64,000 nt of DNA from Podocnemis expansa (lineage: Eukaryota; Chordata; Testudines; Podocnemididae), in contig ML682005.1 in the NCBI GenBank assembly GCA_007922195.1, positions 31,519,672 to 31,583,671 of the forward strand, read 5' to 3'. The translations under genes were made by a program, and so were the position numbers. Below, piece by piece: positions 6,365-58,581 of the stretch (the stretch's first letter is position 1; every line of letters starts with the position of its first letter). The notes beneath the pieces are model-generated. The model did no database searches. It saw nothing but the letters and a program-made list of their open reading frames with translations, and was not told where the DNA came from.

Positions 6365-6475
6365 CTAACCATGAGAGTTCTGTGACACCTTAAAGACTAA
6401 CAGATTTCTTTGAGCATGAGCTTTAAGGGGATCCAACCCATTTCATCAGATGCATGCATGGTGAGATCTGTAAAG
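6365..6475 (-). repeat. Penelope-like terminal-repeat fragment with an intact CTGATGA box
   Basis: The landmarks are GAGAGTTCTGTGACACCTTA, AAGACTAACAGATTTCTTTG and CATCAGATGCATGCATGG. Read on the minus strand, 6449-6443 is CTGATGA, the exact first conserved box of a hammerhead ribozyme. It is followed by a weakened stem II (GGG/CCC pairs) and TAAAGC in place of GAAAGC. This fragment has the best first box of the copies here. Confidence 0.65.
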
Positions 6476-7640
6476 CAGAACAAAGCCCTTTTTTATTGAA
6501 ATGTTTGTGTAGTATAAACCATTAATGGCTACAGCGCTAGATGACATTGATTTTTATCCAAGTACTCTTTTTAACAGTCTCAAGGCTTTTCGGTTTTCAA
6601 TCATTTTTAATCACAAAGAGAAAAAAAATCATTGTGTGGCTGTGTAATGTTTTTGGTCTGTCATGGGATTCTTTTTCTAGTGTTGTCATCAGGAGTCAAA
6701 TTAAAAAAATAGGGCAGAAGATTGGAGAAAAACAGGAGATAAGATGATTTTTCTGTGCATAGCTTCATGTTGTACAAAATTAAACAATAGGAAAAGCTTT
6801 TAATTTTAAGCACTTCAATTATATTGGGTTAGCAGCAGTGGCAAATTCAGATTTAGAGGCATTTCAAATGCTGTATTTCAGCTGACAGCTCTTAGATTAG
6901 AAGATGCTAGGTCTATCAAAAATTGCATGCCTTTTATTTGTCAAATGACTAAAGACCTGAATAACCTCATAAAAATTACTGCCTATAATTCTAGCATTTA
7001 TATTATGATAGGCAGTATGAAGGCAATAGCTTTCATGAAGCTTTTTTAAAGTGAATTAGATGGGGAAAACCTATATAATCCTCAAGTTTTAAATGTGCTT
7101 TGGAAATCGTATACTCTATGTTCCTTAGAGTTTGATGTGTTTCTGTGAAGTCCACCAGAAGGAAACTGGAGAAGATTTCTTTTTATTACTGCATGCTTCC
7201 TAAGAGTAGACCTATTACATCGTAGAAAAGAAAATATTTTTAACTTCAGACAATGCATACTGAAATTTTATGCATGAAATACTCAGTTCCTAAGTAACAA
7301 CTAACATAAATTTTTTCAGAAATTTTATAGCAGACACTCCCATTAGCTTAATGGGCTAAATTCTGAGGTTGTTCTTACTTGTTAAACACTCAATAACATC
7401 TATGGGAGTTTTCTTCAGTAAAGAATGAGTCAAATTTGAGTAAAAATCTCAGAGTTTAGTTGACCACTTAATAACATTCTTATGTTAACTAAAACCAGCA
7501 CCATAATACCAGGAGCTTTGATTCAGTAAAAATATTGACACAAAAGTGACACTAAAACCCTGAGCTTTCATTCTGACTCATAGAATTTAACTGAAGCTAG
7601 TGAGTTCTGCATGGTGCAGGATCATAATGAAAATGCCAAT
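6476..7640. other. Intronic sequence; weak old palindromic interspersed repeat at about 7345-7450
   Basis: Mostly featureless AT-rich sequence. At 7345-7450 the opening GGGCTAAATTCTGAGG and closing GAGTCAAATTTGAG resemble a decayed reptile/bird interspersed repeat with complementary ends. Identification is weak. Confidence 0.35.
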
Positions 7641-7814: not shown

Positions 7815-7925
7815 GAGAAACAGTTTCCAAAGGGGGATTTTCTCCCACAAAAACTCATGGAATAAATACATTTGTTGGTCTTTAAAAGTGCCCCAGGAGT
7901 CCTTGTTTGTTTAGCTTTTAATGCA
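7815..7925 (+). repeat. Penelope-like terminal-repeat fragment
   Basis: GGGGGATTTTCTCCCACAAA is followed by CTCATGGAATAAATACATTT, GTCTTTAAAAGTGCC and CAGGAGTCCTTGTTTG. This is the plus-orientation counterpart of the repeats at 2.6, 19.8 and 32.8 kb. The hammerhead-like stem II is GGGGGA/TCTCCC, followed by ACAAAAAC in place of GAAA. It is truncated upstream of the CTGANGA box. Confidence 0.6.
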
Positions 7926-14171: not shown

Positions 14172-14365
14172 TATCTGTAGATGTTCCAAAGGGATAGCCA
14201 TGTTAGTCTAGTCCAGCAAGACAAACACATTTATTTGTCTCATCAGCTTTTGTGGGAGATAATCACCAAGCATCTGACAAAGCGGGAGTCTCTTCCATGA
14301 AAGCGCATGATAAAATTGTTAATCTTTAAAAGTGCCACCAGACTCCATGTTTGTTTTATCTATAA
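14172..14365 (+). repeat. Penelope-like terminal repeat, partly palindromic
   Basis: GCCATGTTAGTCTAGTCCAGC at the left and TTAATCTTTAAAAGTGCCACC near the right mark the family. The core at 14273-14312 reads CTGACAAAGCGGGAGTC, then CTCTTCCATGAAAGCG. That is a CTGANGA-like box, a weakened stem II, then an intact GAAA. The left half contains a second inverted partial copy (CATCAGCTTTTGTGGGAG), as in the palindromes at 37.9 and 54.6 kb. Confidence 0.65.
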
Positions 14366-19769: not shown

Positions 19770-20110
19770 GAAAACAGGCAAACAGTCTGATGGCACTTTT
19801 AAAGACTATTGCATGAGCTTTCTTGGGAGAAAATCCCATTTTGTCAGATGCTTGAAGATGGAGAACTTAAAGAGTGGGTGGAAAATTAATGCAGGGACAT
19901 ATAAGTCATAGGATCAGGTCAGACTGAAAAAGCAATTCAGTGCAGTTGTTTAGTTTCAAACACTGAAGAACAGCATCTAGGAGGGAGGGAGGAAAGCAAA
20001 ATCACCTGTTTTGATGGGGGAAAGAGCCATAGTCTCTTTTCAACCCTAAATTGCCAGTGTCAAATCTCTATATGAATTCCAATTCTGCAGTTTTTCTTAG
20101 AAGCTTTGAT
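19770..20110 (-). mobile_element. Penelope-like terminal repeat and adjacent end, minus orientation
   Basis: Landmarks are GTCTGATGGCACTTTTAAAG, GAGAAAATCCCATTTTGTCA and GATGCTTGAAGATGG. The downstream part (AATCACCTGTTTTGATGGGG, CCATAGTCTCTTTT) matches the copy at 32.75-33.35 kb. On the minus strand the core is CTGACAA, stem ATGGGA/TCTCCCA, then AGAAAGC. It abuts a Penelope coding fragment of opposite orientation at about 20110-20140, giving an inverted junction. Confidence 0.65.
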
Positions 20111-26735: not shown

Positions 26736-28745
26736 GAGTGGGGATTGGCAATTCACAGCTCTGGAGCCACGTGTGGCTCTTTAACAGCCACCATGCAGCT
26801 CAAGGGACACCACGCTGCAGGGGGATGTCCTGCTGGCCCCAGCATTGGAGCCAGATTAGAGGGCTCTCAGTCAGCCCACACTGCCCAGTCTGGGGACACC
26901 GGGGCCTCCACCACCCACCCACTGCATAAACACACAGTGGCTGAGCAGACGCACTGCAGACCCTAGTGCTGATGGGTTGTGCAGGTAGGGGGGTGAGTGT
27001 GGACAGCCGGGGCCATAGGCTATGCCACCCTCCCTCTTCAGCTCTGCTCCACTGGCGGGGCAGAGAAGTGCTCTCCTCTGCCCCCCTACCCCAAGGCAAC
27101 CACCCATCCCCAAGGGTTGAAGGGTGGCTGGCATGGAGCTGCTAGTTCTGGGGGCAGGGCCCTAAAGTGACCCACTCAGCAGAGTTTGGGCTGCTCCCCC
27201 CCCAGCACAGAATGAAGTGGCCCAAACTCTGCTGAGCAGGCCTCTTGAGGGCCCTGCCTCTGAAACCAGCAGCTCTGTGTGGGCTGTTCTCCACCCCCTG
27301 GAGAGGGGTGGCTGGCTGGGGGTAGGCAGGGCAGCAGGGTGCACTGCCAGCAGAGCAGAGGGAGGGTGGCGCAGCCTCTGGCCTCAGCCATCCGCGCTCA
27401 TCCCTCCCCCCTGCACCCCACTAGCTATGGGTTTTGCAGTGTGTCCACTCAGCAGCCTTGTGCTTATGTGGCGGGAGGGTGGTTGCGGCCCTAGTGCTCC
27501 CAAGCTGGGTGGCCTGGGAGGGCCAGGAGCCCTTTAATCCAGCTCTCATCCTGGGGCTGGCAGGGTGTCCCCCTGCAGCCTGGCATCCCTGGAGCCACAT
27601 GGTGGCCAGAAGTAGGTGGGGCAGCTGGGGCCAGAGGCCATGTTGGCCTTCCTCCACTCCGCTGCAGATGCAGAGCAGAGCTTCTGGTTGCCCAGGTGCC
27701 CCGGCTGACCGCTGCTCCCCAGGGAGCAGAGTGTGGCCAGTGCAGGGCTGCTGTTTTCAGGAGCAGGCCCTCGAGTGGCCCACTCCGTGCAGTTCAGGCC
27801 CCTTTTTGCCCACCCCCACCCAGCACTGAATATGTCCACCCCAGGGCGTGGGGGCGAGGTGGCCTGTGTTCCATGCTGGGGGACCTGGGGGAAAGTGGTT
27901 GAAATCCCTGAAACTTGTGTGCTCTAGGACCCTGCCCCCTGAAAGCAGCAACCACCTGCCGACCACTCTCCAAGAGGAGAGGAGGGGCAGCTGAGAGTGC
28001 TGCTCAGTAGCAGAAGCAGAGGGAGAGCCGCGGCTTCTGGCCACAGTCACCCATCTTCCCCCCCTCCCTCCTGCAGCTACAGAGGCTGCAGTGCAGCCAC
28101 TTCTGGCCCATGTGGTGGTAGGGCATGGTGGCACCAGTGCCCCAAAACTGGTTGGCGTGGGCTGGGACCTCCCAATCTGTCGCTAGTACTGAGACCAACC
28201 AGGTGCCCCCATCAGCCTGGCACCCTGGGGGCTGTCACATTTGCTTCCCCCCTTGCTTCATGCCCCCCCACCCTCAGCATCCCTCTTCTGCACAGAGCAG
28301 AAAGGGTCCCAGCCACTGGGGAGGGGCTGCACAGGGCTGGGGGAGGCTAATGTGTGTTGTCCCCTGGGCACTTGGTATGCCACTGGTTGGCGGGGGGGCA
28401 CCATCCTGGGGCTCAGTGGGAGCACTAGTTTGGCCAGCAGTAGTGGGAAGGAACCACTGGGCTCCAGAAGGGCCAGCCAGGCTTGGGGAGGTGGGAGGAT
28501 GACAGGAGGTCTGACCACCTTGGGCTGGGTGGGGAGGAGGAGAGGAAATATTCTGTCTCAAGGCTGGGTGGGCATGCCAGCAGGGTCAGCTGCACTGCGG
28601 GGGGTGGACTATTAGGAGCTCGAAGGCCAGCTCGGCATGAGAGGATGACAGGTGGCACCTGGGGCCAGCCAAGGGGGCCAAGTCAGGCTTGTCTCTGGAC
28701 CAGGGAGGGAGAGGGACTGCAGCTGAGCAGGGGGAGAGCTTAATT
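26736..28745. mobile_element. About 2 kb GC-rich composite repeat with internal inverted copies
   Basis: The left edge GAGTGGGGATTGGCAATTC resembles a hAT terminus, and GGAGCCACGTGTGGCTCTTT follows as in the MITE at 8224. No matching right terminus is found, so the element is probably truncated or rearranged. Inside, about 26785-26955 is an inverted, diverged copy of about 27430-27610, and about 28085-28230 is a third copy in the orientation of the second. Numerous overlapping frames of 60-130 codons in all six frames reflect GC richness. Sharply GC-rich against AT-rich flanks. Confidence 0.55.
27175..27236. repeat. Perfect hairpin, 17 bp arms
   Basis: CTCAGCAGAGTTTGGGC at 27175-27191 is perfectly complementary to 27220-27236, with a 28 nt loop. 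The word GAGTTTGGGC recurs in the hairpin at 30726-30824. Confidence 0.95.
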
Positions 28746-30411: not shown

Positions 30412-31219
30412 CAATTCTTCCTCAATTTCCTGGACCCTGATTGTCCGGACTTCAGGATATTCGGACAAATCTTCTGAAGTCTGGGGCCCTGGCTGTGCTG
30501 CTCCGGCAGACAGGGAAGGGGTCCCTAACCACCCCCCCCTTCTAGCTTCCAGGAACGGGGGTCTGGGGGCTGGAGGCTACTGCACCCACCTGCCCATCCG
30601 GCCTCACCGCAGCGGGTGGAGCAACTGGACAGCCAACCACCAGCCAGCCGCGCCTCCCGGGGGAGGAGGGAGCCAGCACTGAGCTCCTGCATGCGGGGTC
30701 AGGATGCTGGAGCAGCCCGCCCCGCGCCCAAAGAGTTTGGGCTGTTTCACCCCCAGCCCCCCTCCAATGGGTCTGCTCATGACCAGGGGGTGGCCAGTGG
30801 TGAAACGGCCCAAACTCTTTGGGCACAGGGTGGGCCGCTCCAGCATCCCAACTCTGCGCACCGGAGCTCAGCACCAGCCCCTCCTCCCCGGGGAAGCATG
30901 ACTGGCTGGGGGTCGGTGGTCTGGCTGCTCCACCCCCTGCGGTGAAACCGGGCGGGCAGGCGGGTGCAGCAGCTTCAGTCCTCGGCTCCTGGCCATCCCC
31001 CCCATTCCTGGAAGGGGGGGCAGTTAGGGACCCCTTCCCTGGCCACCAGACAACATTGTCCAGTGGCCAAGGACGGGGGCCCTAACCACCCCCCCTTCCA
31101 GCTCCTGGGAGGAGGGAGCCGACACTGAGCTGGGGGAAAGGAGGCTTTCTATTTTCCAGACATTCGGAAAATTCGGGTACCTCTTCCCCCCCATAATCCA
31201 TAACATCGAGGAAGAACTG
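30412..31219. mobile_element. 808 bp foldback MITE with TA duplication, pogo/Tigger-like ends
   Basis: The inverted termini are CAATTCTTCCTCAATTTCCT (left) and CAGTTCTTCCTCGATGTTAT (right, inward), flanked by TA at 30410-30411 and 31220-31221. The arms remain recognisably complementary toward the centre near 30775. One inner segment, 30726-30751 with 30799-30824, is 26 bp with one mismatch. The element is GC-rich and non-coding; overlapping frames of 60-110 codons are compositional. TA duplication and ends suggest a Tc1/mariner-superfamily (pogo) origin. Confidence 0.8.
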
Positions 31220-32744: not shown

Positions 32745-33350
32745 AATAAAACAAATTAGTCCTGTGGCATTGTAAAGACTAACAAATTTATTTATCCCAT
32801 GAGCTTTTGTGGGAGACAATCCCACTTTTTCAGATAATCTGAAGATGGGGAACTTACAGAATGGGGGGAAAATAAATGCAGGGAAGTGTACGTCATAGGA
32901 TCACGTCAGATGGTGACAGCAAATCAAAGCAGGTGTTAAGATTCAAACACTGGGAAACAGCACATAGAGCAGCAGTTCCTGACATTTTTTCTGCTACGGC
33001 ACACCTTACTACCTTTAATTAATTTGAGGCACACCACCATATAGTTTCCAAATAAACTCATGAATATTTCTGAGCCAATGAGCCAATACAGAGCTCTTTG
33101 AGTAGTTTTCCAAAAATTTTGTGGCACATCTGATCAGACCTGAGAGCATACTGGTGTGCCATGGCACACTGGTTGGGAAACACTGATATAGAGGATGGTG
33201 AGGTCAAATCACCTGTTGTAATGAGAAAAAAAAATCCATAGTCCCTATTTAGCCATTTCATATTTATCATGTGATAAATAAATTTCTTAGTCTTTAAAAG
33301 TGCCACAGGACTCCTCATTTGTTTTGCTGAATTAGACTGACATGGCTATA
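32745..33350 (-). repeat. Penelope-like repeat pair, interrupted by a hAT MITE
   Basis: The left part 32745-32969 has CCTGTGGCATTGTAAAGACT, CATGAGCTTTTGTGGGAGAC and CCCACTTTTTCAGATAATCT. On the minus strand the core is CTGAAAAA, stem GTGGGA/TCTCCCAC, then AAAAGC. The right part 33194-33350 continues the element (CACCTGTTGTAATG, CCATAGTCCCTATTTAGCC). It then switches to an inverted terminal-repeat end (GTGATAAATAAATTTCTTAG, AAAAGTGCCACAGGACTCCT). The copy is therefore flanked by oppositely oriented ends, and resumes for a few bases at 33835. Confidence 0.68.
32970..33185. mobile_element. 216 bp hAT-Charlie MITE nested in the Penelope repeat
   Basis: Termini are CAGCAGTTCCTGACATTTTT and, inward from the right, CAGTGTTTCCCAACCAGTGT, typical of hAT-Charlie. 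The 8 bp flanks ACATAGAG (32962-32969) and ATATAGAG (33186-33193) agree at seven of eight positions. The interior carries GGCACACC words, once near each end in inverse orientation. Non-coding. Confidence 0.87.
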
Positions 33351-33826
33351 CAGGGGTTAAAGTATAATTTGGTGGGCCCCGGAACCATTCTAATTGGGTG
33401 GGCCCCCCTCCTGCTCCCAATATCCGTTCCCCTGTCCCAAAAATTCACCCCTGGCCCCCAATACTCCCCCCCCCCCGCCCACAGTGCGAGCCAGGCCACC
33501 TCAGTACTCACCAGCAGCACAGTGGGCCAGGAGACTGCAGCATGTGCATGCACAGGGGAGCCTGTCCCCCTCCCCTGCATGCCGGAATGTGCGGCGGAAT
33601 GCCCTTCTGGGGCCCACTATTTTTGGGGGCTCAGTGTTTGGGCCCTTAAAAATAAAAGATGGTGCTGGAACGCTGCATTCCGGGGCCTGCTGTTTTTCAA
33701 AAATGGGCCCCAGAACGCAGCATTCCAGCACCATTTTCTATTTTTAGGAGGCCTGGAACTCTGAACCTCTAAAATAGTGGGCCCCGGAATGGTGTTCTGT
33801 GCCATTCTGGTGTACTTTAACCCCTG
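33351..33826. mobile_element. 476 bp GC-rich hAT MITE, CAGGGGTTAAAGTA family
   Basis: The ends are perfect 14 bp inverted repeats, CAGGGGTTAAAGTA and its complement. Flanks TGGCTATA (33343-33350) and TGGCTATC (33827-33834) form an 8 bp duplication with one change. The interior is rich in GGGGCCCACTATTTTT-type words. Three mutually overlapping frames are compositional. It is related to 57897-58581 and inserted at the very end of the Penelope repeat. Confidence 0.88.
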
Positions 33827-33834
33827 TGGCTATC

Positions 33835-35058
33835 TCTCTGGAACTTGGATTAAATAGAAATGGAGAGTGCGGAGGACCACAGGTACTGGCTCTGTAAACT
33901 GCGTGAAGGGAAACTGGTATGAGGAGCACAAGAAGGGAGACGGGAAGAAGAACAGATGTGCAAGAAAGAATTGGACTGAGATTGGGAGCTTAGAGGAGGA
34001 GATAGGGACTATTTGGGCAAGAAGATATGCCTGAAATGAAGAGCAAGGAGGTTTGGAGACTGGCACTGGCTTGATGAGTGGACTGCGATTAGGGAGCCAA
34101 GGGGAGACAGGACAAGGGCAGACTGGATGGGACAGAAGGGTCTGGAGTCGCTAATCCATAACCTACTTCTGAACCCGTATCTGAACCAAAGATTATAGAC
34201 TCTCAATATTTCTCTGTTAGCAACTCTGCGAAACCCACTGGCAAAATGTGTGTCACTTTTCCTTGGGAGGATGGCAATCTATCTATTCCTATCATCAGTT
34301 ACATGGTTAGTTAAAGTGGCAGAGATCTGTATTGAGGATCTAATGGTTCAACTCTGTGGATGCCAATATGTTTCCACATGAGAAACTGAGATTTCAGATT
34401 TTATGAACACACTCCCATACACACTAACTATGTAAAAAGAATCTTTAGTTTGCAAAGCTCTCAAAAGTTAGGAAATGTCCATGCAACCAGAATTTTGTGT
34501 TTTTGTGCTACGTATTGTGATGCATACTTTAATAACATGCTCATGTGTTAGTTTTTCAAAGGAAAAAGTCAACAGATTTTTTCCCCTCCCATGTCTTCCT
34601 GAGTCTAGCTAACACTGTAATACTACCAGTAAATGGGAATACTTGCTCATTGTTAATCTATATATTTAATTATATCCCAAGTTAAAAATGGGAAATTTTG
34701 TTTTCCTGAGTTAATATTCTTTCATCTCACCTGAGACATAATTATACTAATTCTAGAGAAGCACTGGACCTATACAAATGCACTTGGACTTTACCTACGG
34801 GTTAGCAACAAGATCTGGCCATGAGAAATTGGAATGTGTCAGAATATAAATATTTTTAGGCATTCACATCCATGAGAAGTGCTTTTCACACATACAAAAA
34901 AAAAACAAAAACCCACAATACACTTTTTAGAACCAGGTGTTTTCACAGCTCTGTCTGTTCTACGTTTATTTCATTACACTGTGGTGACACTGGTAACAAA
35001 GTGTTGTCTCAGTACCAGAAACTTCAGCTGAGCAGATTACTTCTTTCTGTGAAAAGAT
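33835..35058. other. Intronic sequence, nothing recognised
   Basis: There is no repeat family or exon. The A9 run near 34898 and short frames are unremarkable. Confidence 0.4.
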
Positions 35059-37799: not shown

Positions 37800-38118
37800 T
37801 CCAGGGCAGTAGCTGTGTTAGTCTGTGTTCAGCAAAAACAACAAGAGTCCTGTGGCAGCTCAAAGACTAACAGATTTCTTCAGGCATAAGCTTCTGTGGA
37901 CTCCAACCAACTCTGTGAGATGCATGAAATGGAAACTACAGTTGAGAGGTATATATACACGTGCCAGGATGGAGGAGGGCAAGAGTGTGTGTGTGTGTGT
38001 GTGTCATCCTGGCATGTGTATATATAACTCTTAACTGTAGTTTCTAATTCATGCATCTGACAAAGTGGGTTGGAGCCCACGAAAGCTTATGCTCAGAGAA
38101 ATCTGTTACCCTTTAAGG
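37800..38118. repeat. Large Penelope-like palindrome with a hammerhead-like core in both arms (left and middle part)
   Basis: 37832-37971 is inverted against 38005-38118 and then 38959-38995. The innermost 51 bp (37921-37971 with 38005-38055) match at 46 positions, separated by a (GT)10 tract. The right arm core at 38057-38084 is CTGACAA, then stem GTGGG/CCCAC (38065-38069 with 38076-38080), then intact GAAA. This is the best-preserved stem and third box in the window. The left arm carries the complementary version. The repeat is interrupted at 38119 by a MITE. Confidence 0.8.
37985..38004. repeat. (GT)10 microsatellite at the palindrome centre
   Basis: Uninterrupted GT units lie exactly between the two inverted arms. 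Confidence 0.93.
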
Positions 38119-38958
38119 ATGAGTCTACATCCAAAACCTTAGTTTGAACCAGTGGCATCGCTGGTGCTGGGCATGAGGGTGCTCGAGCACTGAGTCCCAG
38201 CGCCAGTGTCCTAGCTCCGCCACCAGGACACCTGCAGCAGTGGCTGTCTTCTCCATTCCCATCCCTGGCCAGGGGTCCGGGACTGCACTGACTATGGCGG
38301 CAGCTATCTTTCTCTGTTCCATCCCCGACTGGGGGTCTGGGCCGGGCCACCTGCAGCAGGAGTCTAATCTGGGCCCTGCCCGGGGCCCCAGACAGGATTG
38401 GGCCCAGGAGGGTGTTGGCCCTGGGCCCCCCTGGTCTTTTCCTGGGCCTATGTCACTCGTGGTTTGGACTTGCTTAGTCAAAACTAAGCAATTCGAAGTT
38501 AATTAGAATTAACCACATTTTTTTAGTTCAAACTAACTTTTTAGTTTGAACTAGTTGTGCCTTTTTTAGTTCAAACTAACTTTTTATTTTGAACTTAAAG
38601 AGCATGGCTAGTTCGAACTAAATGTTAGTTAACTTAGACTAGGCACGTTATTCCACTAAAAGTTAGTTTGAACTAAAAAAATGCAATTAGTTTGAACTAG
38701 CCACTAGTTCGAATTTATTTAGTTTGAAGAAGCATGATTACATGATGCTAGTTCAAACTAAAGTTCAAAATAAGTTCAAGCTAAACAGTTAGTCCGAACT
38801 TTCCATTCAAACTAATGAGTTCAAACTCAGCTTTGCTTGGTTCAAACTAAAAAAAAAAATAGTTTGAACTAGGCAAAGCCTAGTGTAGACAGGGATCAAA
38901 TTAGTCTAGATTAAATCTCCTTAATCCGGACTAGTTTGCTAGTGTAAACATATCTCAT
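38119..38958. mobile_element. MITE of the AGTTTGAACTA family, split by a hAT element
   Basis: The ends ATGAGTCTACAT and, inward from the right, ATGAGATATGTTTACAC are weak inverted termini. Flanking sequence joins as CTTTAAGG|TGCCACAGGA, which is the normal continuation of the Penelope repeat, so it is an insertion. Between 38460 and 38890 the words AGTTTGAACTA and AGTTCAAACTA alternate many times. Much of the element is a set of short interlocking palindromes. It is related to 12725-12960. Confidence 0.75.
38150..38461. mobile_element. 312 bp GC-rich hAT element nested in the MITE
   Basis: Flanks GTTTGAAC (38142-38149) and GTTTGGAC (38462-38469) are an 8 bp duplication with one change. The left end CAGTGGCATCGCTGGTGCTG shares its words with the right end of the element at 16737-17589. 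GC-rich, non-coding; the 85-118 codon frames on either strand are compositional. It is the third and youngest layer of this nest. Confidence 0.75.
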
Positions 38959-38995
38959 GGTGCCACAGGATTCTCATTGTTTTTGACGGGTTATT
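38959..38995. repeat. Continuation of the Penelope-like palindrome
   Basis: TGCCACAGGATTCTCATTGT and TTTTGA complete the repeat that stopped at 38118. It pairs with 37832-37860 of the left arm. Confidence 0.75.
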
Positions 38996-41148: not shown

Positions 41149-44020
41149 CTACTGAGAACAGTCGAGCTCATCCTCCTTGGAGCAACCCTTCAAGTAGTTG
41201 AAGGTTGCTATCAAATCCCCCCTCAATCTTCTCTTCTGCAGGCTAAATAAGCCTAGTTCCTTCAGTCTTTCTTCATAGGGCTTCTGCTCCAGCCCTTTGA
41301 TCATTTTTCTTGCCCTCCTCTGGACTCTCTCTAATTTGTCCATGTCCTTTTTGTAGTGGGGAGCCCAAAACTAGACATAGTATCCCAGATGTGGCCTCAC
41401 TAGTGCAGAATAGAGGGGAATGATCACATCCCTCGATCTGCTGGCAACACTTCTTCTGATGCAGCCCAGTATGCCATTGGCCTTTCTGGCAGCAAGCGCA
41501 CACTGCTGACTCATATCCAGCTTCCCATCCACCATGACTCCCAGGTCCTTTTCTCCAGTGCTGCTATTTAGCTGATCACTCCCCAGCCTATAGCAGTACA
41601 TGGGGTTTTTTCATCCCAAGTGCAGGATTTTACACTTGTCCTTGTTGAACCTCATGAGATTCCTCTTGGCCCACTACTCCAATTTGTCTAGGTCTCCCTG
41701 AATCCTGTCCCTGCCCTCCAGGGTGTCTGCCGTTCCCCCCAGTTTGGTATCATCCGCAAACTTACTAAGTGTGCAGTCTATCCCATCATCCAGATCATTA
41801 ATGAAAACATCGAACAGAACTGGCCCCAGGACCGACCCCTGGGGCACGCCACTCGTTACTGCTTGCCAACTTGACATGGAGCCATTGATTCCTACACGCT
41901 GAAACCGTTGATCTAGCCAGTTTTCTATCCGCCTTACAGTCTACGCATCTAACCCATACTTCCTTAATTTGCCAATGAGAATGCTGTGGGAAACTGTATC
42001 AAAAGCCTTGCTAAAGTCAAGGTATATCACATCAACGGTTCTTCCCGCATCCACAAATCCAGTCATCTCATCGTAGAAGGCGATGAGGTTGGTCAGGCAT
42101 GATTTACCCTTGGTGAATCCATGCTGACTGTTCCTGATTACTCTATTTTCCTCCAAGTGTTTCAGGATGGATTCTTTGAGAAGCTGCTCCATGATTTTTC
42201 CAGGGATTGAGGTGAGGCTGACAGGTCTGTCATTCCCTGGATCCTCCTTTTTGCCTTTCTTGAAGATAGGTACTATATTTACTTTTTTCCAGTCCTCTGG
42301 CACCTCCCCTGTTCGCCATGAGTTTTCAAAGATAATGGCCAACGGTACTGCTATCTCATCAGCCAGCTCCCTCAGCACCCTCGGATGCAGTTCATCCGGC
42401 CCCATAGACTTGTGCACATCTAGTTTCTTTAAGTAGTCCCTAACCTGACCTTCTGTCACCAAGGGCCTCTCTTCTTCTCCCCAGTCTACCGTACCTAGTG
42501 TAGTGGGCTGGGATTTGACCCTGCTTGTGAAAACTGAAGTAAAAAAAGCATTGAGCACTTCAGCTTTTTCCTCATCCTCTGTCACGAGGATGCCTGCCCC
42601 ATTCAGTAGGGGGCCTACACCATCCCTGATCCTCTTCTTGTTATTGGTATACTTGTAGAACCCCTTCCTGTTATTCTTCACATCCTTTGCTAGTCGCAAC
42701 TCCATTTGTCCTTTGTCCTTTCTGATTTTATCCCTGCAGTCCCGAGCAATGTCTTTATATGCCTCCTTAGTCATCTGTCCTAGCTTCCACTTCCTGTAAG
42801 CATCCTTTTTATGCTTCAGCTCAGTGCAGAGCTCTCTGTTAAGCCACAGTGGGCGCCTTCCGCATTTGCTGTGCTTCCTCCTTATCGGAATTGTATCTTC
42901 CTGTGCCCTTAGCAGGGTTTCCTTAAAATGCACCCAACTCTCTTGGACACCTTTCCCCTTCAGATCAGCCTCCCAAGGGATCCTGCCCATCAGTTCCCTG
43001 AGGGAGACAAAATCTGCTTTTCTGAAGTCCAGGGTCTGCGTTCTGCTTCTTTCCTTCTTTCCTTTAATCATCAACTTGAACTCAATCATTTCATGGTCAC
43101 TGCTACCCAGGTTGCCATTCACTTCTACTTCCCTGATACATTCTTCTCTATTTGTGAGCAGCAGATCGAGAGGTGCAAGGCCCCTAGTTGGTTCCTCCAG
43201 CATTTGTACCAGGAAGTTGTCCTCAACATTCTCCAGAAACATCCTGGATTGCCTGTGCACTGCTGTATTGGCCTTCCAGCAGATGTCAGGGTAATTGAAG
43301 TCCCCCATGAGAACCAGGGCCTGTGCTCTATAAACTTCTGTCAGTTGTCCATAGAATGCCTTATCCACCTCCTCCTTCTGATCTGGTGGTCTATAGCAGA
43401 CACCTACCACAACATCCCCCTTGTTGCTCTCCCCTCTAAACTTAACCCACAGACTTTCAACTGGCTTGTTTCCACTTTCATAATGAAGCTCTGAGCAGTC
43501 ATAGATCTCCTTTACATATAGTGCTACTCCTCCCCCTTTCCTTCCCTGCCTGTCCTTCCTGAACAGTTTATAACCATCTATTGCAGAGCTCCAGTCATGC
43601 AAACTATCCCACCACGTCTCTGTTATCCCAATCATGTCATAGTTCTTTGTCTGCGCCAGTACTACCAATTCCTCCTGCTTGTTTCCCAGGCTCCTTGCAT
43701 TTGTGTATAGGCACCTAAGATACCCGGCTGATTGCCCTACTTTCCCATTTTGACTTTCAATTCTATTGTATCTACCTCCCTGCATTTTCTTTTGGTGTTG
43801 AACTCCCCCACCTGCCTCAGGCATTAGGGCTTCATTAGAGCATCTAAGAAGGTTATTTGATTCCCCCCGTATGTTCCAACTATCCTCTCTTCTATCCCTG
43901 GAGTTACAGTCCAGGCACCCCCCAAGTTCCATCCCATCCCCCTGGTCTCCCACATTGTCACTTACCTGTGGGCTTTGGTCCCCTTCCCCCGTCAGACCTA
44001 GTTTAAAGCCCTCCTCACTA
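41149..44020 (-). pseudogene. CR1 ORF2 endonuclease/reverse transcriptase, four in-frame stops
   Basis: The first 670 codons (to 41941) are uninterrupted. They hold the APE-type endonuclease ([42 protein letters not shown]) and then RT blocks up to [27 protein letters not shown] and [13 protein letters not shown]. The same frame continues after TAG at 41943-41941 with [14 protein letters not shown] and the catalytic FADDTKL. It continues past TAG at 41676-41674 (after LDKLE), TGA at 41613-41611, and TAG at 41373-41371. The C-terminus reads [18 protein letters not shown] and ends at 41149. No frameshift is visible. There is no ATG near the beginning, so the start is uncertain. It is inactive as it stands. 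Confidence 0.9.
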
Positions 44021-45059
44021 GGTCAGCCAGTATGCGTCCATATACGCTCTTCCCCTTCCTCAAAAGATGGAGTCCATCTCTGCCTAGCAGTCCTTCTTCC
44101 TGAAACAGCAACCCATGGTCAAGGAAGCCAAAGCCCTCCTGACGACACCATCTTCGCAGCCAAGTGTTCATCTCCAGGATGCATCTGTCTCTGCTCAGGC
44201 CTCTACCCTTGACCGGAAGAATCGAGGAGAACACCACCTGTGCTCCAAACTCCTTCACCCGCGCTCCCAGAACCCTGAAGTCACCTTTGATCTGCTGAGG
44301 ATCACCTCTCTCAGTATCATTGGTTCCTACATGGATGAGAAGCATGGGGTATTAGTCAGAGGGGTGGATGATTCTTGACAATCCCTCTGTAATGTCTCAG
44401 ATGCTGGCACCTGGCAGGCAGCATACCTCTCGAGAGACCTTGTCAGGGCGACAGATGGGTGCCTCCATCCCCCTCAGAAGTGAGTCCCCAACCACCACAA
44501 CTCTACGTTTCCTCCTAGCTGTGGTGGCTGTGATCCTCCCAGCCTCGGGGGTGCATGACCTCTCCTCTTCCACCTCCTTCACCATCTCTAGCACCACATA
44601 ACGATTCTTCACCACAACGGAGGGTGGGTTGTGGGCAGGGGTGGAGCACTGCCTACCGCCAGAGGTAACCAGCTGCCAGTGTCCTCCCCCTGCCACAGGC
44701 TCCCCATCCAGCTCCAGTGCTGTGGCAGTAGTCCCTGGCACCTGGATAGTGCCCTCCTTCTTGCACTTCTCATGGATGCTGTCGAGGAACTTCTCCAGGG
44801 TGTGGATACTCCTGAGCCAAGACACCACCTCCTGTAACTCTCCCAGCTGCCTCCTGAGAGATTCGACCAGCAGGCACCTGTCACATCGATTCATCTCCCC
44901 AGCCAGATCGTTGGAGACAGGGAACTGCAGGCTGCAGTCCCTGCAAGTCCACACCAGGGTCTGGATAGAGATATCTATGGTCAGGATGTCTGTCTGGCTA
45001 CAGGCACAGGTAGAAGAGACAGAAGGGGCGCTGGCAGCAGTGCGGCTGCTCTTCACCAT
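43998..45059 (-). pseudogene. CR1 ORF1 with esterase-like domain, two in-frame stops
   Basis: It begins MVKSSRTAASAPSV at 45059; the open frame runs further upstream into flank, so this Met is chosen because it starts the family-like sequence. The N-terminal part has a CxxC..CDRC-like pair (TCRDCSLQF, MNRCDRCLL) and a coiled region. The C-terminal part is an SGNH/GDSL-type esterase domain, with block I VVVVGDSLLRG, block III HVGTND and block V DGLHL. A TGA (44399-44397) falls just after LPGASI and a TAA (44354-44352) before YPMLLIHVGTND. Both are in frame and no frameshift is seen. ORF1 of CR1 binds nucleic acid, with an esterase of uncertain role. Its end overlaps the start of ORF2. Confidence 0.85.
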
Positions 45060-53075: not shown

Positions 53076-54601
53076 GTCAAACCAACCCAAAACAAAATAT
53101 TTCATTTCAGTTTTCCTAATGGAAAAACAAATATTTCCCCCATAGAAGCTTTTGACATTGCAGAAACTGCCTTCTCTGTCCTAAAAATTTCCCACATTCC
53201 AATGGAAAATTCCAGACTGAGTGTAATAGGAAATAATGACATCCAAAAAAGTTGATATTGTTCCTTTTAAATTAAACAGTACTGTTCAGAAGAAATCATT
53301 TTTACTGAGTAGAGGATGTCTGGTTATAGAAAATTACTGTGGCATCTGATTGCCAAAATCTATTATGGAACTTTATAAATTCATACCTTGATGGTTAAAA
53401 AAAATCAAAACAAAAACTACTAGAAGTCTGCTTGTAAATGTAATAAAACTATGCTAATATGTAAGAAGTGCAACTACTGTGACTCCTCCCTGTCCTTCCC
53501 ACAAAGATCATTAGTTCTTATTTTTATTCATTTAGCTGAATTCATTGACTTGCAAAGATGGCAAAATCATACATGTCAGTATAGCTAAAGATCTTGTGAT
53601 AAACTTAATATATTCATTTTATAGATGGGTAAATGGAAGCACAATCTTAGAAAGACAGCACCCCTGGAATGACAGCTGTTTAGCCACACAGAGCAATACT
53701 TAACAAATTAGGACAGAAAACAGAGTTAAATGCCACATCCTTTTGAAACTGGAGGATGTATTTAGGTAGAGAGAAAGTAAGTACCTAATCATAATAAAAA
53801 GACATCTAAAAAAAATAGAAAGAGGTCATTGGTTTTGATGTTTTCTGTAATGCTGAGCTTTCTGTAACTTGTTAGTAAAATGAAAGACTTAATCAGATGT
53901 CCAAAGACTATAGGAATAAACTATACCTGTTAGAGCTACAATGTAGCTACTCTGCTGTGAGCATATTGAATGTGGCCTCCTTAAACAAAGTCATCTGTGT
54001 CATCTCATTATTACCTTTATTCTGTAGCTTTTCAGTACAGATATAGAAAGTAAAAATAAGTGAAAATTCTGGCCTGTTTTGCTACAAACAAGTTTTACTT
54101 CTCAGAAAACAAATGATGAAAGTTGCAATAAATATTTCATCTTTAAAAGATGAAAAATTAAAACCATCCCTTAGTGACATCTTGGCTTCAGTCCCTTGAT
54201 CAGAAGAATTCACTGGAAAACAAGATGAAACTCAGACACTGAAGCAATTATTAAAGGAAATGAACATGATAAAAGATAGTTGAGAAAGTCCAAAGAGTTG
54301 TCACTTAAAGGAGAAAAATGAATGTCTGTTTTGGAGTCCTTCATGAATAAGTTATAAGTGTGTTAATGTCTCATGTTTCAGATAAATAAGACTGAGCTGA
54401 GACCGTGATTTGATGGCAGACTTTATAAACTGATCACAATAGAAATAGGACAATGTAGCAAATTAAGTACAAGGCATTTCCTGATGATGAAATGGCTGGC
54501 TAGCTGAAAGTGATGTGTACCATTAATTCCAGTCAGTCATTATAACCATAGAAATGCCATGAACTATGATTATTGCTATTAACATTTCAGAAAGAGAAGA
54601 A
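53076..54601. other. Intronic sequence; possible MIR-like fragment at about 53600-53660
   Basis: ATTTTATAGATGGGTAAATG near 53617 is reminiscent of antisense MIR. Otherwise AT-rich and featureless. Confidence 0.35.
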
Positions 54602-54755
54602 ACAATGAGAGTTCTGTGGCACTTTAAAGACTAACAGATTTCTTTGGGCTGGAGCCCACAAAAGCTTATACCCAAAGAAATCTGTTAGTCTTTAAGGTGC
54701 CATAGGACTCTCATTCTTTTTGCTGTATACAGACTAACATGGCTACTCCTCTAGC
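54602..54755. repeat. Penelope-like palindrome, 45 bp arms
   Basis: 54604-54648 and 54671-54715 are inverted repeats with three mismatches, spaced by 22 bp that include GGAGCCCACAAAAGCTTATA. That is the right half of stem II, ACAAAAGC in place of CGAAAGC, and the following segment. Beyond the right arm the usual TGTATACAGACTAACATGGC end follows. The CTGANGA box and 5' half of stem II are lost, so this is an end-to-end fusion of two fragments. Confidence 0.78.
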
Positions 54756-57515: not shown

Positions 57516-57896
57516 AAATACTATGTGTGTGACTTCAATTACATTAAGGAATTTAGTTAATCAAAATTATCAGCAGATTATATAATTAATATTAATTACA
57601 AAATTACTGTAAATCTTGAGTGGGAGAGTTTGCTCAAAACTCTTTCTAGGTTTGTCAGCTTTGAACTCAAGGAATTTGTTTTAACCTATCAAGTCCTAAA
57701 TAGCTGGGTTTACAATCCTTCTGATCACCTGAGGCTTTGGATAAATGGTGTGGCAATGGAATGGTTCACTCTAAACTGCTAGTGTAGGCAAAATCAACTT
57801 TAGAATATGCTAATGTCATCAGATTGAAGTCTAGTGTCCCCCACTAGGCTTCAGCTTGGCCAGATTGGCCCATGCTTAAGTCCAAACTAATATATA
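57516..57896. other. AT-rich sequence beyond the hAT transposase
   Basis: May contain the missing right end of the element; nothing diagnostic is visible. Confidence 0.4.
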
Positions 57897-58581
57897 CAAG
57901 GGTTAAAGTAAGCCGGAATGCATAGGAATAGTGTTCTGGGGCCCACTATTTTTAGGAGCTCTGCATTCCAGGGACCCTAAAAATAGAAAATGGAGCCAGA
58001 ATGTTACATTCTGGGGCCCACCATTTAAAAATAGTGGGCCCCAGAACGAAGTGTTCCATCACCATTTTCTATTTTTATCTCCCCCCCAATGCTGAGCCTT
58101 TAAAAATAGCAGGTCCCAAGACACCATTCCTGTGCATTCCAGGAGGCAGGGAGCTGCCCCAACCGGGGCTGAGGCTCTGGCTTAAGCCTGCTCTGACTGA
58201 GCATGCTCAGTGACAACAGGCTCAGGCTGGACCCTCAGCCCGGGCTGGGGCCGCTCTGCAGTGACATGGTGTCCAGGTGGTTCAGGGGGACAGGTGAGCT
58301 GGCCCAGCAGGGTGAGGGCATGGGGAAGGGGGTCAGCCCCAGGCAGTGGGAGAAGATGGCGCAGCACAGCAAGGGGTTGGGGGGACCAGCAGTGAGACGG
58401 GGGATGGGGCAGTGGCTGGGGTGGCACGTAGGTGTGTGGAGGGCAGTGGCTGGGGCAGAGGGGCAGTAGCTGGGGTACTTGGGGGGGGCCCACACTAGCA
58501 CAAGGGAGGCCTGGCCTAGCATGAGGGGGCCTGCCAATTTAGGATGGTTTCAGGGCCCACCAGATTATACTTCAACCCCTG
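57897..58581. mobile_element. 685 bp GC-rich hAT MITE, CAGGGGTTAAAGTA family
   Basis: The left end CAAGGGTTAAAGTA and the right end read inward (CAGGGGTTGAAGTA) match the 33351-33826 element, as do the internal GGGGCCCACTATTTTTA words. The central part is GC-rich and different. No clear target duplication remains (AATATATA versus ATTTTGGA). Overlapping frames of 60-103 codons on both strands are compositional. Confidence 0.78.

Follow-up and report, generated by a model that had tools for sequence, protein, structure and literature searches.

A family of short repeats in the turtle Podocnemis expansa appears to carry the fossil of a hammerhead ribozyme. The DNA analysed is a 64,000-nucleotide (nt) stretch of contig ML682005.1 (GenBank assembly GCA_007922195.1, positions 31,519,672 to 31,583,671 of the forward strand), called the window below and numbered from its first letter. 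We interpret the motif as the remains of a minimal type I hammerhead without stem III, lying within the conserved region of a Penelope-like element from a reptile, probably a turtle, and assign this interpretation a probability of roughly 0.75. We favour it because an inferred parent motif, a stem II pair with both sides changed between subfamilies, a short stem I, a palindrome in place of stem III and a common 3' end all fit the minimal Penelope hammerheads. Judged from its sequence, what is new here would be a decayed member of an already known kind, the Penelope-type hammerheads.

The Motif and Its Copies

The best-kept copy, of subfamily A, has the following parts.

38053..38092, + strand: complete motif, GCAT-CTGACAA-A-GTGGGT-TGGA-GCCCAC-GAAA-GC-TT-ATGC
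38053-38056/38089-38092, + strand: stem I
38057-38063, + strand: box CTGACAA, with an extra A at 38064
38065-38070/38075-38080, + strand: stem II, with loop TGGA
38081-38084, + strand: GAAA, followed by GC and TT
between 38088 and 38089, + strand: predicted ancestral cut

A preliminary description of this DNA had placed CTGACAA, a GTGGG/CCCAC stem and GAAA in hammerhead order at 38057-38084, and these coordinates are exact. It had also claimed hammerhead spacing; the order is indeed kept, but one extra A follows the box in every box-bearing copy (8/8) and stem II is 6 bp long. The repeat copy that it reported at 38041 is real, although not free-standing: it forms one arm of an inverted pair.

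A joint profile of two subfamilies matches 13 stretches of the window at E ≤ 0.1, with E-values that are optimistic, as ten of the 13 matches overlap rows from which the profile was built. The box segment is present in eight of the 13, the best-kept copy and the seven below, and all core counts refer to these eight; the five stretches without the box (54645+, 54648-, 33267+, 14264- and 38958+) were left out of them. The copies were aligned by hand.

37884..37923, - strand: subfamily A copy, head to head with the 38053 copy; box CTCACAG, AGAA
6414..6453, - strand: subfamily A copy; exact CTGATGA at 6449-6443, TAAA, stem II broken
14270..14310, + strand: subfamily B copy; CTGACAA and GAAA kept, stem II with one G.U and one C.A, GC at the UH position
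19811..19851, - strand: subfamily B copy; CTGACAA and GAAA kept, stem I of 4 bp, stem II pair 1 broken
32797..32837, - strand: subfamily B copy; CTGAAAA, complete 6-bp stem II, AAAA
2671..2708, - strand: subfamily B copy; box short by 3 bases, AAAA, complete 3' tail
7821..7860, + strand: subfamily B copy (labelled 7843); badly decayed, hand-aligned box, the least certain of the set; five of six stem II pairs

The exact CTGATGA on the minus strand at 6449-6443 and the copies at 14273, 19850, 32838 and 2690 had all been proposed beforehand and are borne out, with one more copy at 7821-7860. The second subfamily is likewise real, but the 1.33-kb repeat said to contain it was not found: among the self-matches listed, self-inverted stretches aside, the longest spans 452 columns.

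Both stems are well kept. Stem II, with a loop of TGGA in subfamily A or a TTTTC-like loop in subfamily B, has 41 of its 48 cells paired, and stem I has 30 of its 32 (eight copies; both tallied by hand from per-copy pair lists). The earlier suggestion that stem II is maintained while its loop and sequence vary agrees with what we see, since loops and pair 6 differ between the subfamilies. Of the three A copies, two have U.G as pair 6 and one has the pair broken; all five B copies have A-U, and the boxless copy at 54645 has C-G. A single pair is thus changed on both sides between the subfamilies, covariation that we regard as supporting but not strong. The UH before the predicted cut is kept in seven of the eight copies. 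Folding of 38053-38092 yields both stems (z -2.13; five of 200 shuffles as good), and this hairpin is the lowest-energy monomer fold.

The catalytic boxes have fared less well than the stems. Exact CTGANGA is found in one of the eight copies (6449, CTGATGA) and CTGACAA in three; exact GAAA is found in three (38053, 14270 and 19811), never alongside exact CTGANGA, for the CTGATGA copy is without GAAA and the three GAAA copies all read CTGACAA. Many of the core lesions fall in two CpG sites. At box positions 7-8 the eight copies read CA (five), TG (one), AA (one) and a gap (one), and at positions 11.1-12 they read CA (four), CG, TG, TT and AG (one each). Because TG and CA together derive most simply from CG, we infer CG at both sites, and the parent core was probably CTGACGA-A-stem II-CGAAA. 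As they now stand, the copies in the window appear inactive through damage to the core, to the stems or to both; none still looks able to cut.

Two simulations bear on how often such an arrangement arises by chance. A relaxed scan allowing one mismatch per box picked out 38057 and 32833 in the window, each belonging to this family, where first-order Markov sequence averaged 0.45 loci per 64 kb (both strands, 20 runs); this excess is not strong evidence by itself. In 162 Mb of simulated strand, a perfect-box scan found 35 combinations of box, stem II and GAAA, none of which also had the UH and a stem I of 4 bp. The latter scan tests the inferred parent, not any one copy, and leaves uncounted the freedom used in inferring that parent.

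Element Ends

Of the 13 matched stretches, six stop at profile positions 247-252, five at 228-233 and two elsewhere; their starts are scattered. Most copies trained the profile on which these end clusters are read, and 7843 and 14264, both among the six long ends, have poorly aligned tails. Four long copies are clear, and their 3' ends, at GGCTAC or a variant of it, lie 77-80 nt beyond the predicted cut. The optional 3' part, some 14-24 nt, contains AGACTAACATGGCTAC; its first nine bases form an inverted repeat with TGTTAGTCT, of which they make up the 3' arm. The 3' stem TGTTAGTCT/AGACTAACA is perfect in the copies at 37806-37883 and 54672-54750. Starts near the cut (profile 167/168) occur in two of the 13 stretches, at 166 and 171, the latter within an inverted pair, and this clustering is not significant (rough hand Poisson, about 0.07).

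Penelope-like retroelements offer parallels for such an end. The Poseidon element of Anolis carolinensis (PAc) is cut at +26, and reverse transcription begins 85-92 nt downstream of the cut, at +111-118, within a stem loop rich in A and C; an optional tail of 30-40 bp may be present in copies of Penelope (PMC11167929). In distance, the spacing from cut to start in Poseidon is similar to the 77-80 nt from cut to 3' end here. Poseidon copies are tandem, whereas those in the window are dispersed or inverted and have no coding region that we could find; PAc RNA, moreover, is cut only with the element's protein (PMC11167929).

A Stem III Shared Between Two Molecules?

No intramolecular stem III can form in these copies, because only two bases separate A15.1 from U16.1 (GC in six of the eight, AC in two). 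From A15.1 to U16.1 the copies read AGCU (five), AACU (two) or AGCG (one). AGCU is self-complementary, which would let a pair of cores form one common stem III of 4 bp; a double hammerhead of this kind can be drawn without a pseudoknot. We also considered an alternative stem III, GC-UUAU-GC, with a cut after GCUC, and set it aside, as the bases past that cut are, by eye, unpaired with those before the box.

Under the mechanism that we propose, the ancestral RNA core would have consisted of stem I GCAU/AUGY, CUGACGA, the extra A, a 6-bp stem II, CGAAA, GC and U16.1-H17. Two RNA copies would pair through the palindromic AGCU (A15.1 to U16.1), and the paired RNAs would cut each other at GCU(U/C)/AUG, the cut falling ~79 nt upstream of the 3' end where the long copies stop. 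Two reviews describe minimal Penelope hammerheads without helix III (PMC6155905; PMC7761336), the second adding that usually no nucleotides remain there, and dimer hammerheads are said to require a palindromic stem III site and, if eukaryotic, to be arranged in tandem as well (PMC6466107).

Two features deserve specialist attention, namely the extra A and the palindromic AGCU. They might together mark a subclass of Penelope hammerheads in which a 4-bp AGCU stem III is shared, cutting is obligately dimeric and the cut sets the 5' ends of new insertions, though we think this rather unlikely. If it were true, copies that start at the cut (e.g., the one at 33267) would be footprints of germ-line ribozyme activity.

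Evidence Against a Hammerhead Fossil, and Rival Explanations

Several observations weigh against a fossil Penelope hammerhead. None of the eight copies has both boxes intact, all eight have the extra A where stem II in the usual hammerhead directly follows the box, and stem I is just 4 bp. The CpG sites are themselves awkward: strand-symmetric decay predicts equal numbers of CA and TG, but the count is 9 versus 2, and the boxless copies 54645+ and 14264- likewise have CA at 11.1-12. The CA excess disfavours the idea that every copy simply decayed from an intact parent; some members, mostly of subfamily B, may have spread without G12, and some masters, again mainly of B, may already have been without G8 or G12. 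Folding is of uneven help, with other motif segments doing only weakly better than shuffles (32797, z -1.61; 19811, z -0.84) or no better (6414-6453, z 0.59), and with none of the four 3' stem-loop segments beating its shuffles (z -0.56 to 0.71). In each of the three copies tried, the double hammerhead as drawn has a less favourable energy than the best dimer (in kcal/mol, -22.7 versus -31.6 for A38057, -16.1 versus -19.8 for B19850, and -7.7 versus -20.5 for A6449), and two separate monomers are also more stable than it in all three; the extended duplexes score better. No tandem family copies were seen in the window, where copies are dispersed or head to head. Nor did scoring with the Rfam hammerhead models, which the preliminary description had proposed as a check, come out in its favour: there was no match in the window at the gathering threshold or at E ≤ 10, nor at E ≤ 10 in two copies scored separately (38030-38120, 91 bases; 6385-6480, 96 bases). 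Finally, no Penelope domain (telomerase-like reverse transcriptase or GIY-YIG) turned up in the ten open reading frames (ORFs) scanned of the 52 listed, so the Penelope label rests on anatomy, the copies being too short for their coding content to decide membership. With these qualifications, the Penelope-type hammerhead identity originally put forward gains support as that of a fossil, labelled by its anatomy and with no copy that has both boxes.

The points just listed leave room for other accounts of the motif. A hammerhead relic might have been carried by a retroposon other than Penelope, similar to a short interspersed element (SINE) or to a retrozyme, as would suit the absence of Penelope domains from the ten ORFs scanned and the shortness of the copies; retrozymes, too, harbour hammerheads (PMC7229834). 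The same paper describes animal retrozyme hammerheads as lying in short tandem repeats and having loop-loop contacts, whereas the copies here are dispersed or head to head and without stem III, and their 3' end spacing resembles that of Poseidon. The 139,606 Penelope copies (over 30.0 Mb) that PMC11315351 gives for a tortoise genome would also speak for Penelope, except that they could not be linked to this family. On balance, we consider such a carrier unlikely. Another proposal is that a conserved repeat hairpin (GCAT/ATGC and GTGGG/CCCAC with an internal loop) resembles a ribozyme by chance and never was one. The absence of any copy with both boxes, the silence of Rfam, the extra core base, the CA excess at the CpG sites and the fact that the hairpin is the lowest-energy monomer fold are all compatible with this; yet a conserved core can be read from the copies, given CpG decay at G8 and G12, together with the UH and both stems, and the full motif occurred in none of the 162 Mb simulated, with the reservation made above about the inferred parent. 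A look-alike therefore strikes us as improbable. It is more improbable by far that a host gene keeps one copy as a working ribozyme, in the manner of the intronic hammerheads of amniotes: there are precedents in RECK and other introns (PMC6155905), but each of the eight box-bearing copies has a lesion in the core or a stem.

Other Features of the Window

The remaining members of the repeat family, and the inverted pair to which the best-kept copy belongs, are as follows.

54645..54750, + strand: subfamily A copy without the box, its start close to the loop of stem II; pair 6 of that stem is C-G; complete 3' tail; inverted partner at 54648-54593
33267..33348, + strand: subfamily B copy; homology begins ~2 nt before the predicted cut; complete 3' tail
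14192..14264, - strand: incomplete copy of subfamily B, inverted and facing the one at 14270
38958..38989, + strand: weak 3' fragment of the repeat family (E 0.012, the weakest of the 13 matches)
37859..38117, both arms: inverted pair of subfamily A copies; arms ~76% alike, on either side of a TG tract; a single transcript would form a long hairpin

Copies of the family are often paired head to head (37859-38117, 54595-54724 and 14192-14364). Directly after the copy at 33267-33348 lies another repeat, 33351-33842, parts of which recur at 57881-58581. Further long self-inverted stretches are found at 26787-27606, 30481-31071, 33582-33810, 38471-38871 and 57915-58140, and are perhaps palindromic DNA transposons. 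The best two sub-threshold Rfam matches in the window, MIR781 and mir-1277, coincide with inverted pairs, at 54604 and 37935, and were taken as palindrome artefacts; the best Rfam match on the 6449 copy, snoR60 (17.5 bits versus a gathering score of 40), was taken as chance.

The single reverse transcriptase found in the ten ORFs scanned lies at 41944-44022 (- strand), in a 693-amino-acid open frame that also has an exo/endonuclease domain and stops inside the reverse transcriptase. By this pairing of domains the frame is probably that of a long interspersed element (LINE), presumably of the CR1 kind.

Outside the window, no copies of the repeat were found in viral, genome or phage contig collections; reptile genomes are not expected there, and the result has no bearing on the family's distribution. 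A leatherback turtle microsatellite primer, Dc013, holds a 16-base word, a putative variant of the repeat, and the complement of this word matches the profile consensus of subfamily A at all but one base (PMC3596356). Our literature search returned no paper linking a hammerhead ribozyme with Chrysemys or Testudines, and a search combining hammerhead, Penelope and turtle gave unrelated work only; a further sequence word from the repeat matched no paper.

Relation to Known Hammerheads

An extra core A has a precedent in the plus-strand hammerhead of Chrysanthemum chlorotic mottle viroid, which is active with an additional A between A9 and stem II; that hammerhead belongs to a viroid and has its stem III. 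Lunse et al. reportedly described about 150,000 hammerhead variants in 2017, and the present family may already be among them. The closest comparison is with the minimal Penelope-like hammerheads (Lunse, Weinberg and Breaker 2017), as reviews describe them: these share the type I order, the missing stem III, the palindrome at the stem III site and residence in a repeated element. By description, the family differs from them in the extra A after CUGANGA, the GC left at stem III, the decay of its copies and the absence of tandem copies from what was seen. The satellite or retrozyme hammerheads of newt and axolotl also have a weak stem III with a palindromic loop and act better as dimers, but they are embedded in tandem repeats of 330-350 bp and have loop contacts (PMC7229834).

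The role of the hammerhead in Penelope-like elements is unsettled: in the Poseidon study a ribozyme-dead RNA inserts equally well in vitro, and the cut site coincides with neither the start nor the end of any read (PMC11167929). A reptile family as old as this one, with its many copies, could show whether cleavage mattered in vivo, through 5' ends that fall at the cut and through boxes traced from subfamily to subfamily.
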